Made by a program: the position numbers and the translations under genes. A stretch of DNA of 64,000 nucleotides, taken from contig JAPNUP010000148.1 of NCBI GenBank assembly GCA_026627345.1, positions 1-64,000 of the forward strand, given 5' to 3'. Within the stretch, counting starts at the first letter, position 1. Each line of letters starts with the position of its first letter. Below, piece by piece: positions 1 through 30,114 of this stretch. A model generated the notes under the pieces. That model was not told where the DNA came from. It searched no databases and saw only the letters and a list, made by a program, of their open reading frames with translations. This DNA comes from Bacillota bacterium (lineage in GTDB: Bacteria > Bacillota > Bacilli > Alicyclobacillales > SLC66).

Positions 1-140
<140 letters not shown>

Positions 141-26325: not shown

Positions 26326-27195
26326 TTACTCTTCTTCCCCGTTGCTCGGCGCATCTGGCGGCAATTCTTCTGTTTCCCCTCGCAATAAAGCAATCTCGTG
26401 CCTGTACAGGCCGCCTGGCGTTTCCAAGATCAGCGGAATCTGTGCAAGCGCCGGATGCCGTACGATCCGCAATAGAGCATCGACCCCGAGCGAACCGCGA
26501 CCGATATTGGCGTGACGGTCCTTGTGTGAGTCAAACGGCGTTTTCGAGTCGTTGATATGCGCAACTTTCAGTTTGTCGAGCCCGATCGTATCGTCAAATC
26601 GCGACAAAAAGCCATCGAAGTCATTGACGATATCATACCCTGCACTGTAGTTGTGGCAGGTGTCTATACATACTGCCAGCTTTTCACGATGCTTGACAAG
26701 GGCCATGATCTCGGCAATCTCTTCTAATTGATTACCCACTTTAGATCCATCTCCGGCCATAGTCTCTAAACAAATCGACAACGGCTCTTCGCCCGTCAAA
26801 ATGGCATTGAGCCCTTCAGCGATCCGTTTGATCCCGGCTGCCGTGCCAGTTCCCACGTGACTGCCTGGATGCATCACAATATACTTAAAGCCAAGATAAG
26901 ATACGCGCTGAATCTCCTCCGTCAGAATCATCACCCCGTATTCGAAGGTATCTGTCTTTTGACTTGCCAAATTGACCAAATACGACAGATGTACCACAGG
27001 GTCTGAAAGACCGCTTTGCTCCATGATCGCTTGCGCCTCATCACGATGAAATGTGTCGATCGGCTTGGCCGCGCCACCGCGGTTACTGCGTGTATAGATC
27101 ATATACGTATCAGCCCTATAGGAGATGGACTCCTCAACCGCTTTCAACAAACCAGTTTTGGCGATAGAAACATTAGCCCCTATTTTCAAAGACAA
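26326..27195 (-). CDS. nfo: Endonuclease IV (AP endonuclease)
   Basis: A 289-residue apurinic/apyrimidinic endonuclease of the Nfo family, which cuts abasic DNA during base excision repair using three metal ions. Metal-site motifs are visible: MHPGSHVGTG, CLETMAGDGSKVG, CIDTCHNYSAGYD, HINDSKTPFDSHKDRHANIG and LETPGG. The N-terminal HxPY stretch is slightly unusual (VVHLSYLVNLAS). The start is TTG; a ribosome site GGAGGAG lies just upstream, and the second in-frame TTG six bases further in is also possible. Likely co-transcribed with the mtnE-like gene. Confidence 0.9.
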   Translation of the reverse strand: MSLKIGANVSIAKTGLLKAVEESISYRADTYMIYTRSNRGGAAKPIDTFHRDEAQAIMEQSGLSDPVVHLSYLVNLASQKTDTFEYGVMILTEEIQRVSYLGFKYIVMHPGSHVGTGTAAGIKRIAEGLNAILTGEEPLSICLETMAGDGSKVGNQLEEIAEIMALVKHREKLAVCIDTCHNYSAGYDIVNDFDGFLSRFDDTIGLDKLKVAHINDSKTPFDSHKDRHANIGRGSLGVDALLRIVRHPALAQIPLILETPGGLYRHEIALLRGETEELPPDAPSNGEEE

Positions 27196-27309: not shown

Positions 27310-27349
27310 AGAAGGCGCATGCAGTCTTGACGACCTGCACACGCCTTCT
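27310..27349 (-). terminator. Probable terminator of glnA
   Basis: An inverted repeat AGAAGGCG/CGCCTTCT (27310-27317 and 27342-27349) is extended by TGCAG/CTGCA inside. On the minus strand it is followed by a moderately T-rich stretch. It lies 22 bp past the glnA stop. Confidence 0.6.
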
Positions 27350-27370: not shown

Positions 27371-28795
27371 CTACAGATCCAGATACATCTGGAACTCAAG
27401 CGGATGCGGGCGCAACTTGAGAGGAAGTACTTCTGTCGAACGCTTGAAGTCGATCCATGTCGCGATGAAGTCGCGATCGAATACCCCACCTTCGAGTAGA
27501 AATTCGTGATCGCTCTCAAGCGCCTCAAGCACTTCGTCGAGTGAGCCTGGCACGCTGCGAATCTGCGCCTTCTCATCTGCTCCTAGTTCATAGATATTCT
27601 TATCCATCGGGCCATAGCCGTGCGCCGTCGGATCGATCTTGCGGCGAATACCATCTAATCCAGCAAGCAGCATCGCTGCAAAAGCCAAGTACGGGTTTGC
27701 CGTACAATCTGGCGTCCGAAACTCGATACGTGCAGTCTTCGGCGTAACGGCCGCCACTGGTACGCGCACAGCCGCACTGCGGTTGCCTTTAGAAAACACA
27801 AGGTTGACTGGCGCTTCGTATCCGGGAACCAAACGCTTAAAGGAGTTGGTGCTCGGAGTGGCAAACGCCAGAATGGCAGGCGCGTGCATGAGGATGCCTC
27901 CGATATAATGCAAGGCAGTTTCACTCATGTTGCCATAACGCCCCTCTTCAAAGAACAAGGGATGACCATCTCTAAACAAGCTTTGGTGTACATGCATGCC
28001 AGACCCGTTATCACCGTACACCGGTTTCGGCATGAATGTGGCAACCTTCCCGTACTTGCGAGCCACATTGCGAACGATATATTTATAGAGTAAAACAGTG
28101 TCCGCGACATTCGTTAGCGTGTTGAATCGAAAGTTAATCTCTGCTTGACCCGCGGACGCGACTTCGTGATGATGGCGTTCGACACGAATGCCTGCATTCA
28201 TTAATTCCATCACCATTTCGGTACGAATGTCGTGCTGACTGTCGGTAGGCTGAACAGGAAAATAGCCACCTTTGTTCTTTACTTTGTAAGCTAAGTTACC
28301 ATTCTCGTCCTTACCCGTGTTCCAATTTCCTTCGCTCGAATCCAACTGGTAGAAAGCACCCGATTGGCTGGAATCAAATCTGACATCGTCGAAAATAAAA
28401 AATTCGAGCTCAGGGCCAAAATACGCTTCTGTCGCCACGCCTGACTGGCGCATGAAGGCTTCTGCCTTTTGTGCGATAAAGCGAGGATCGCGATTGTAAC
28501 GAACGCCCGCGGGATCATAGATGTCACATACAAGATCCAAGGTAGGGACTGCGGTAAAAGCATCTACATAGGCAGTAGCAAGGTCTGGACGCATCACCAT
28601 ATCGGATTCTTCAATGCCTCGAAATCCCTGAATACTGCTACCGTCAAAAGCCACACCGTGCGTCAGCATGTCTTCGTCTACTTCGATAGCCGGAATCGTA
28701 ACATGGTGTTGCCGGCCCGGCATATCCACCAAGCGAAAATCCACCATCTGAATCTTCTTCTCTTTAATCAAGGATAAAATTTCCGAAACTGTCAT
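27371..28795 (-). CDS. glnA: Glutamine synthetase, type I-beta
   Basis: A 474-residue glutamine synthetase (glutamate + ammonia + ATP). Signature motifs are DGSSIQGF (51-58), PVYGDNGSGMHVHQSL (258-272) and the ATP-site stretch NRSAAVRVP (338-346). The C-terminus carries the loop KNIYELGADEKAQ, with Tyr402 aligning to the adenylylated Tyr397 of enteric GlnA, and extends to a GSI-beta-type end (RPHPLEFQMYLDL). Bacillus GlnA is the shorter alpha type (444 residues). The start ATG 28795 has GGGAG eight bases upstream and begins MTVSEIL as in the family; the open frame to 28897 crosses the operator and is not used. Monocistronic. Confidence 0.9.
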   Translation of the reverse strand: MTVSEILSLIKEKKIQMVDFRLVDMPGRQHHVTIPAIEVDEDMLTHGVAFDGSSIQGFRGIEESDMVMRPDLATAYVDAFTAVPTLDLVCDIYDPAGVRYNRDPRFIAQKAEAFMRQSGVATEAYFGPELEFFIFDDVRFDSSQSGAFYQLDSSEGNWNTGKDENGNLAYKVKNKGGYFPVQPTDSQHDIRTEMVMELMNAGIRVERHHHEVASAGQAEINFRFNTLTNVADTVLLYKYIVRNVARKYGKVATFMPKPVYGDNGSGMHVHQSLFRDGHPLFFEEGRYGNMSETALHYIGGILMHAPAILAFATPSTNSFKRLVPGYEAPVNLVFSKGNRSAAVRVPVAAVTPKTARIEFRTPDCTANPYLAFAAMLLAGLDGIRRKIDPTAHGYGPMDKNIYELGADEKAQIRSVPGSLDEVLEALESDHEFLLEGGVFDRDFIATWIDFKRSTEVLPLKLRPHPLEFQMYLDL

Positions 28796-28862: not shown

Positions 28863-28892
28863 TCAGTATACGATACTCCCTGCAGTTCCGTC
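28863..28892 (-). promoter_or_regulatory. Sigma-A promoter of glnA
   Basis: On the minus strand TTGACG is followed after 18 bp by TATACT, about 70 bp upstream of the glnA start and just upstream of the palindromic operator. Boundaries are approximate within a few bases. Confidence 0.55.
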
Positions 28893-28923
28893 AACACTTC
28901 ATGTTAGGTTAGCTCACGTGCAC

Positions 28924-30114
28924 TTAGTCGAACCGCAATGTTCGTCGCCGGACAGATACGCTGAGGGCAATCCCAATGAAAATAAAATCGACGATCAAAG
29001 AGGAGCCTCCGTAACTGACAAACGGCAAGGTGATCCCCGTGGCTGGCGTGATGACCAAATTCATCCCGATGTTCTCAAAAATCTGAAACGCAAACATCCC
29101 GACCGCTCCTGCGAGCATGTACGAACCAAAATCATCGAGTGCTGTGTTCGCTATGCGAATCATCCGGTAAAGCATATATAAAAACAGCATGATAAGCACG
29201 CTTGATCCGATAAATCCCAACTGTTCCGCTACTGCCGAAAAGATGAAATCTGTCCACTGAAAAGGAATCCACCCACCGGAAGTCTGGGAGCCGTGAAACA
29301 GGCCTGTCCCGTAGACACCGCCTGAACCGACAGCAATCTCCGCCTGCGCAACCTGATACCCATAATCGGACGTACTGTAGCCCGGATCGATGAGCGTGAC
29401 AATCCGCATGGTCTGGTAATACTTGAGAAAATGCTGGTGCAGTAGGAAATGGAGCGTTTCTTTATAAAACACGCCTATCGCTAGCGCGACAAAGCCTACC
29501 AACGTCCCACCGATCCCCATCATCCATGCCAAGTGCCGTTTTTTCACATAGACCAACAGCATGGTGAACATCGTCGCGATGAGGACCAATGCCTGTCCGA
29601 GTGCGGGCTCTTTCAGAATAAGGGCCGCCGGAATGAGAAAAACAGCGAATACGGGCAATAACCCCCGAAAGGAATAGTCAGGCGTCTCTCGCTCGTTCAT
29701 ACGGGCCATGTAGTCAGACGTCCATATGATCGCGGCGAGTTTGGCTAATTCCGAGGGCTCAAAGCTGAGTCCCGGAAGCGGAATCCAACTATGCGCATTG
29801 TTGATCTTGTGGAACCCGAAAACCGCGACAAGTAAAAATAGCGTGCCACCATAAAAGATCCAACGGATCTTTGCCAAACTCTTGTAGTCATAAAACATGA
29901 CCAGAAACATCGTGATATAGCTCAGCACTTCCCAAACGATCTGTCGGTACAGAATATGAGCGGGAATGCCGAGTACGGGATCCCCCACAGCCGGATTAGC
30001 TTTGCCGTAGGTCGAGGTGTACACCGCGATACAACTAAAAACAGAAATACCCAGCATAGCGATGATCAGACCGTAGTCGAGATCGCGGATGTTACGTTTT
30101 ACAATGGATTCCAA
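28924..30114 (-). CDS. FtsW/RodA/SpoVE-family protein, RodA-like
   Basis: A 396-residue polytopic SEDS-family peptidoglycan polymerase with about ten membrane segments. SEDS proteins polymerise glycan strands from lipid II with a partner class B PBP. Conserved stretches include FEPSELAKLAAI, GSQTSGGWIPFQWTDFIFSAVAEQLGF and ENIGMNLVITPATGITLPFVSYGGSS. The last resembles RodA (elongation) more than FtsW. The start is TTG 30114 with GGAG about nine bases upstream. It stands alone without mreBCD neighbours. The alternative is a sporulation SEDS protein. Confidence 0.8.
   Translation of the reverse strand: MESIVKRNIRDLDYGLIIAMLGISVFSCIAVYTSTYGKANPAVGDPVLGIPAHILYRQIVWEVLSYITMFLVMFYDYKSLAKIRWIFYGGTLFLLVAVFGFHKINNAHSWIPLPGLSFEPSELAKLAAIIWTSDYMARMNERETPDYSFRGLLPVFAVFLIPAALILKEPALGQALVLIATMFTMLLVYVKKRHLAWMMGIGGTLVGFVALAIGVFYKETLHFLLHQHFLKYYQTMRIVTLIDPGYSTSDYGYQVAQAEIAVGSGGVYGTGLFHGSQTSGGWIPFQWTDFIFSAVAEQLGFIGSSVLIMLFLYMLYRMIRIANTALDDFGSYMLAGAVGMFAFQIFENIGMNLVITPATGITLPFVSYGGSSLIVDFIFIGIALSVSVRRRTLRFD

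Follow-up and report, generated by a model that had tools for sequence, protein, structure and literature searches.

A second glutamine synthetase of the GSI-β type, probably under GlnR control, in a Bacilli genome

The 64,000-nt stretch of DNA analysed here (positions 1 to 64,000 of contig JAPNUP010000148.1, assembly GCA_026627345.1; hereafter the window) carries a gene for a second glutamine synthetase (GS) of the GSI-β type. We put the probability at about 0.85 that this gene was inherited within the Bacilli, is of the glnA1 type and encodes an unadenylylated work enzyme that takes no part in signalling, its amount being set by GlnR, while a GSI-α enzyme encoded at another locus acts as the sensor. 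The assembly comprises 2.76 Mb in 186 contigs, and the nearest named relatives of the genome are Ferroacidibacillus, Sulfoacidibacillus and Alicyclobacillus. The features of the locus are collected in Table 1.

Table 1. Coordinates of the features at the β-GS locus of the window
Feature	Position	Strand	Basis or remark
GSI-β glutamine synthetase gene (glnA1-type), 474 aa	27371..28795	-	ORF, TIGR00653, tree, alignment
β insert of ~25 residues, codons 136-161 (DDVRF...WNTG)	28313..28390	-	alignment
Tyr402 codon, aligned with the enteric adenylylation tyrosine, also present in α	27590..27592	-	alignment
GlnR/TnrA-type box CGTGAGCTAACCTAACA	28902..28918	-	7/8 fixed positions of TGTNAN7TNACA
-35 hexamer TTGACG	28889..28894	-	promoter scan; place kept in relatives
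-10 hexamer TATACT, 18-nt spacer	28865..28870	-	promoter scan
Perfect palindrome of 21 bp (two 10-bp arms around a 1-nt centre), between -10 and start codon	28829..28849	.	
Hairpin just 3' of the stop, 14-bp stem including two G-U pairs	27311..27348	-	by eye
Upstream neighbour, FtsW/RodA-like protein	28924..30114	-	named by reading; 13/14 family loci
Downstream neighbour, endonuclease IV-like protein	26326..27195	-	named by reading; 13/14 family loci

Assignment of the window gene to GSI-β

Judged by its sequence, the window gene is a catalytically ordinary GSI-β glutamine synthetase. The reading frame, for which the first-pass annotation gave no strand, runs on the minus strand from an ATG at 28795 to a TAG codon at 27371-27373, and its product scores 622.7 bits against the NCBIfam model TIGR00653 (GlnA, type I glutamate-ammonia ligase), above the cut-off of 429.15. 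Against NF007006 (PRK09469-type GlnA), which we take to be the model for enterobacterial GlnA, it reaches 597.8 bits, below the cut-off of 845. A search of solved structures returned chain 3ng0, presumably the GS of the cyanobacterium Synechocystis, as the best match (E 9.4e-179).

Two sequence marks separate the enzyme from GSI-α. The first is the insert by which GSI-β is defined and which has no counterpart in α enzymes (PMC9249791): residues 136-161 of the window protein align with the β enzymes of Enterobacter, Nonomuraea and Paenibacillus, and fall on a gap in the 445-residue α enzyme of the same genome. The second is the place of Arg62, which holds arginine in 11/11 α enzymes and in 0/77 of the Bacilli β set, so that the window enzyme shows neither of the α features. 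The residue counts cover 77 of 78 Bacilli rows, as the protein of locus L045 breaks off early (71 aa), and one α row (L155) was left out of them. The α enzyme of the same genome, of the Bacillus type, catalyses the same reaction and belongs to the same overall family, but lacks the insert, carries the Arg62-type residue and is 41% identical to the window enzyme. Enterobacterial GlnA, an adenylylated GSI-β enzyme, shares with it the insert, the length and an aligned tyrosine, at 52% identity.

Phylogeny agrees with this assignment. The tree holds 81 rows, namely 70 of the 111 unique β rows, thinned by hand, and 11 α rows; it is a quick tree with SH-aLRT supports only and contains some long branches. 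The window enzyme groups with the β enzymes, and the split between α and β has a support of 100. Of the 80 loci fetched, two partial ones (L074 and L088) enter neither the upstream set nor the tree set, and the final counts were made after removal of four duplicate proteins. The first-pass annotation of this DNA had called the gene GSI-β and named a GlnA phylogeny as the check; the length of 474 residues, the insert and the fully supported separation from α bear it out on gene type, whereas its guesses at regulation through GlnE and at a horizontal origin are poorly supported, as described below.

Promoter and surroundings

The β-GS gene likely has a promoter of its own, a reading suggested by the -35 element and the GlnR/TnrA-type box before it, both of which keep their places in relatives. 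The region holds three promoter-type matches, compared with 2.6 expected in shuffles. Neither of the neighbouring genes was found beside β-GS in the other 66 loci, within the flanks examined. The exact core of the palindrome in the leader has a single copy in the genome and is absent from 40 relatives. We rejected this palindrome as a conserved operator, its core being present in 1/41 genomes and both of its half-sites missing from the leader of a locus of the same genus (L045). The hairpin downstream may act as a terminator; it has a weak T run and is missing from the output of the terminator scan. At the gathering threshold, Rfam returned for the whole window only the edge of a 16S rRNA, a partial match (model positions 1-146) at window positions 1-137 on the minus strand.

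A GlnR/TnrA-type box before the -35 element

The β-GS gene is probably controlled by GlnR through the box that lies just upstream of its -35 element. Relative to the consensus TGTNAN7TNACA, taken from PMC9948412, the box deviates at the first position (C for T), and its start lies 24 nt ahead of the -35 sequence TTGAC. A box matching at least seven of the eight fixed positions and starting 22-25 nt before TTGA is present in 38 of the 39 β genes of the order, at exactly 24 nt in 37 of them; the same arrangement occurs in 10/37 other Bacilli (the remaining 27 have no 7/8 box at this place), in 0/34 non-Bacilli and in 0.16% of 11,000 resamples, which are first-order Markov draws from the test rows and not strict dinucleotide shuffles. 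Anywhere within the 220 nt upstream, a box of at least 7/8 was found in 74/76 Bacilli, the exceptions being L043 and L187, as well as in 2/34 non-Bacilli and 9.2% of resamples. One Bacilli locus with too short an upstream sequence (L038) was left out of these counts. By the promoter box, with seven of eight positions and a place kept throughout nearly the whole order, the gene is a candidate member of the GlnR regulon.

Two loci stand apart. L066, from a metagenome-assembled genome (MAG) titled Thermaerobacter, has a Bacilli-like β-GS (71% identity), by misbinning or transfer; a perfect GlnR consensus lies upstream of its β-GS, and by eye no recognisable -35 element follows it. This locus counts as non-Bacilli in the figures of 74/76 and 2/34, and as Bacilli in the tree, in the residue counts and in an alternative grouping that gives 75/77 against 1/33, with a Fisher p of 3e-24 that is only a guide because related rows are not independent. 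L187 (genome G054, family f16), a β-GS of the class without a 7/8 GlnR box upstream, sits on a long branch and perhaps has a separate history.

The motif as such is loose. Across the genome, YGTNAN7TNACA gave 141 matches against 116 in the control and is barely enriched, so the claim for the box rests on its conserved place and not on sequence alone; a genome-wide search was discarded on the same figures as too loose to define a regulon. Upstream of the genome's own glnR the best box reaches 6/8 only, and a textbook autoregulated glnR operon is therefore not evident here.

The α enzyme and GlnR of the same genome

Two glutamine synthetases exceed the Pfam cut-off in this genome. The second is the α enzyme, encoded on contig C10 directly after a GlnR-like gene; the glnR and the further, α-type glnA that the first-pass annotation had suggested looking for are thus both there, at another locus. 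One match to this GlnR was found in the genome at E<=0.001. The protein carries QGELSRFF near its C-terminus, which resembles the published GlnR tail IQGELSRF that enters glutamine-inhibited GS (PMC9249791). According to the same source, the GlnR tail binds α-GS where β enzymes have their insert, and Arg62 helps to fix the glutamine-inhibited state.

Among the 398 genomes sampled from the class, 387 have an α-GS at E<=1e-110, including all 104 that carry β-GS; none of the β carriers is among the 11 α-less genomes. In one genome (G103) the α-GS match, at C134:138795-140129, has one in-frame TAG. PII (PF00543) was matched neither in the genome studied here nor elsewhere in its family of 18 genomes, some of which are incomplete, compared with 17/23 genomes of the sister family (13 strong matches and 4 weak). 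Across the whole family f1 (G000-G017), this absence is an apparent family-wide loss.

These elements can be arranged in a simple scheme. The α-GS encoded beside glnR would be the glutamine sensor; once inhibited by glutamine, it would bind the C-terminal tail of GlnR and so activate GlnR, which in turn would set the amount of β-GS at transcription by putative binding to the box upstream of the -35 element. By analogy with glnA1 of Paenibacillus polymyxa, the effect of GlnR under nitrogen excess would be repression. Since the insert occupies the site of the GlnR tail and an Arg62-type arginine is missing, the β-GS itself most likely serves as a work enzyme, sending no signal to GlnR and escaping the α mode of inhibition by glutamine.

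Relation to glnA1 of Paenibacillus polymyxa

In P. polymyxa WLY78, glnR and glnA are found in glnRA and glnA1 is separate, and the two synthetases are 39% identical (PMC6191146). GlnR sites are reported for glnA1, whose promoter is bound by GlnR when nitrogen is in excess (PMC9948412). One of the two 19-mers that this paper prints for the glnA1 promoter occurs exactly in three β-GS promoters (L199, L200 and L201), and the second in none of the fetched loci. Because of the exact 19-mer in three β-GS promoters, glnA1 is very probably a β gene. The window gene is probably orthologous to it. Like glnA1, the window gene encodes a second GS apart from glnRA and has a GlnR-type promoter site, and the distance to the α enzyme is similar (39% identity there and 41% here). 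The two differ in promoter layout: the window gene has one box and the extra palindrome, whereas Paenibacillus promoters, as seen by eye, have a further, strong distal box together with a weaker copy near the -35 element. In P. polymyxa the interaction of GS1 with GlnR is described as weak, with or without glutamine, and deletion of glnA1 as leaving nif control unchanged (PMC6191146).

Other second synthetases have been described in Bacilli. Alicyclobacillus acidocaldarius has three glnA genes according to a 2012 survey, one of them with a clear GlnR site (PMC3412718). The glnA2 of Halobacillus halophilus likewise stands alone as a second GS gene of a Bacilli genome, and differs from the window gene in its predicted sigma-B promoter and its response to salt and chloride (PMC4187189).

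Direction and level of control

Repression under nitrogen excess appears more likely than activation, by analogy with glnA1. A site upstream of the -35 element is often an activator site, which makes the direction of GlnR control uncertain. The box, centred ~50 nt before the likely start, stands in this position in nearly every β gene of the order, and would suit a GlnR that activates the β gene as an enzyme of nitrogen starvation. A GlnR site upstream of the -35 and -10 elements does activate nif in P. polymyxa (PMC6191146), and A. acidocaldarius is listed without TnrA (PMC3412718), much as the genome studied here yields a single GlnR match. We nevertheless consider activation the less likely direction, as glnA1 is expressed more strongly in a glnR deletion than in the wild type at both nitrogen levels (PMC9948412), and the binding of GlnR to that promoter was seen under nitrogen excess. 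Some glnRA operons of the class, inspected by eye, also have a box just before the -35 element, which further weakens the case for activation from position.

We know of no small GS-inactivating partner protein in Bacilli, and it is improbable that the β-GS is inhibited by such a partner, as in cyanobacteria, and not by transcription alone. What speaks for it is the best structure match, 3ng0, together with the inactivation of cyanobacterial GS by small proteins (PMC6316151); cyanobacterial GSI is, however, under NtcA and its inactivating factors, where the window gene has a GlnR-type box instead.

Distribution and origin

The β-GS looks like an old gene inherited within the Bacilli. It was found in 36 of 41 genomes searched, the present one included: in 18/18 of its own family, a count that takes in one gene split in two (G012), one short (G006) and one gapped (G001), and in 18/23 of the sister family. 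In the class sample, whose Bacilli label is inferred from named relatives, 104 of 398 genomes and 30 of 145 genera have a β-GS at E<=1e-140; MAGs were labelled as Bacilli or non-Bacilli from their titles and the tree. Named relatives with β-GS include Sulfoacidibacillus, Ferroacidibacillus, Alicyclobacillus, Paenibacillus and Fontibacillus. In the tree, a branch with an SH-aLRT support of 92 sets apart the 43 β rows of the Bacilli group, which include L066; their first partners are nine other Bacillota rows, at 99. The window row is placed within its family, in a nine-row set supported at 99.

The first-pass annotation had suggested that the gene may have been acquired horizontally. Its patchy occurrence in the class, and the finding of the same neighbours only in the family within the flank lengths examined, would fit a recent arrival from Gram-negative or actinobacterial donors. 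The presence in all 18 family genomes and the tree position, inside one Bacilli clade that joins other Bacillota before anything else, led us to reject this account, which we regard as very improbable; identities point the same way, at 80-91% to family relatives compared with 58% for the best matches titled as other phyla and ~55% for the best non-Bacilli matches in a plasmid collection. A plasmid origin was set aside as well, the best match in the plasmid collection being a 2.7-Mb Paenibacillus record at 64%. An old transfer of β-GS into early Bacillota may have occurred.

Tyr402 and adenylylation

The β-GS is most likely not adenylylated. The residue to which the first-pass annotation drew attention, Tyr402, does align with the adenylylation tyrosine of Enterobacter (KNLYDLPPEE). 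The same place also holds a tyrosine in the genome's own α enzyme (RNIYVM), in 11/11 α enzymes altogether and in 76/77 of the Bacilli β set. As α enzymes, described as not AMPylated (PMC9249791), carry the same residue, the tyrosine alone is no sign of adenylylation, and we rejected the motif as a marker. Around it the loop reads NIYELGADEK, compared with NLYDLPPEE in enterobacterial GlnA.

The modifying enzyme itself was looked for by its domain. The GlnE domain (PF03710) is unmatched both in this genome, whose assembly is incomplete, and across the 398 class genomes; among 14 control genomes, the search matched 3 (E. coli, Caulobacter and Corynebacterium). The textbook AMPylation of the loop tyrosine that goes with GSI-β thus finds no GlnE counterpart here, and PII, as noted, is also without a match in the genome, a second difference from the setting of enterobacterial GlnA. 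Cyanobacterial GS, to which the best structure match presumably belongs, has been reported as not found adenylylated (PMC6316151), and for this reason we apply the name GSI-β by clade and insert and not by modification. Further afield, GlnE matches occur in 6 of 25 named genomes with a related β-GS, and 19 are without one. Among the six is a Bacillota MAG from outside the Bacilli (L085), which has both GlnE and a related β-GS (60% identity). GlnE may accordingly have come or gone on some branches, perhaps within the Bacillota. The first-pass annotation's proposal that GlnE-type adenylylation of Tyr402 regulates the window enzyme draws on the conserved tyrosine and these six genomes, and is barely credible given the lack of GlnE matches in its own genome and class, the tyrosine of the α enzymes and the cyanobacterial precedent.

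Discussion

The window gene is a member of an already-known kind, the second Bacilli synthetase with a GlnR-type site. That the glnA1 of Bacilli is a GSI-β enzyme, apparently without adenylylation, may be under-appreciated: a literature search on GSI-β in Bacilli, with partial coverage and mostly outside subscription journals, found no paper stating so. A 2022 paper presents GSI-β as the AMPylated form of Gram-negative bacteria (PMC9249791). In contrast to that description, we find β enzymes within a Gram-positive class, in 104 of the 398 genomes sampled, with no GlnE match and, at the gene studied here, a promoter site of Gram-positive type. The tyrosine by itself should not be read as a sign of adenylylation.

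As a tentative and somewhat doubtful generalisation, about a quarter of the sampled Bacilli genomes would contain an α enzyme that drives GlnR as the sensor and an unadenylylated β work enzyme, free of α-type feedback, that is controlled only through GlnR. If this division between α sensor and β work enzyme is true, one synthetase would regulate the supply of the other, and the division would explain why nif control in P. polymyxa is affected by glnA and not by glnA1 (PMC6191146).
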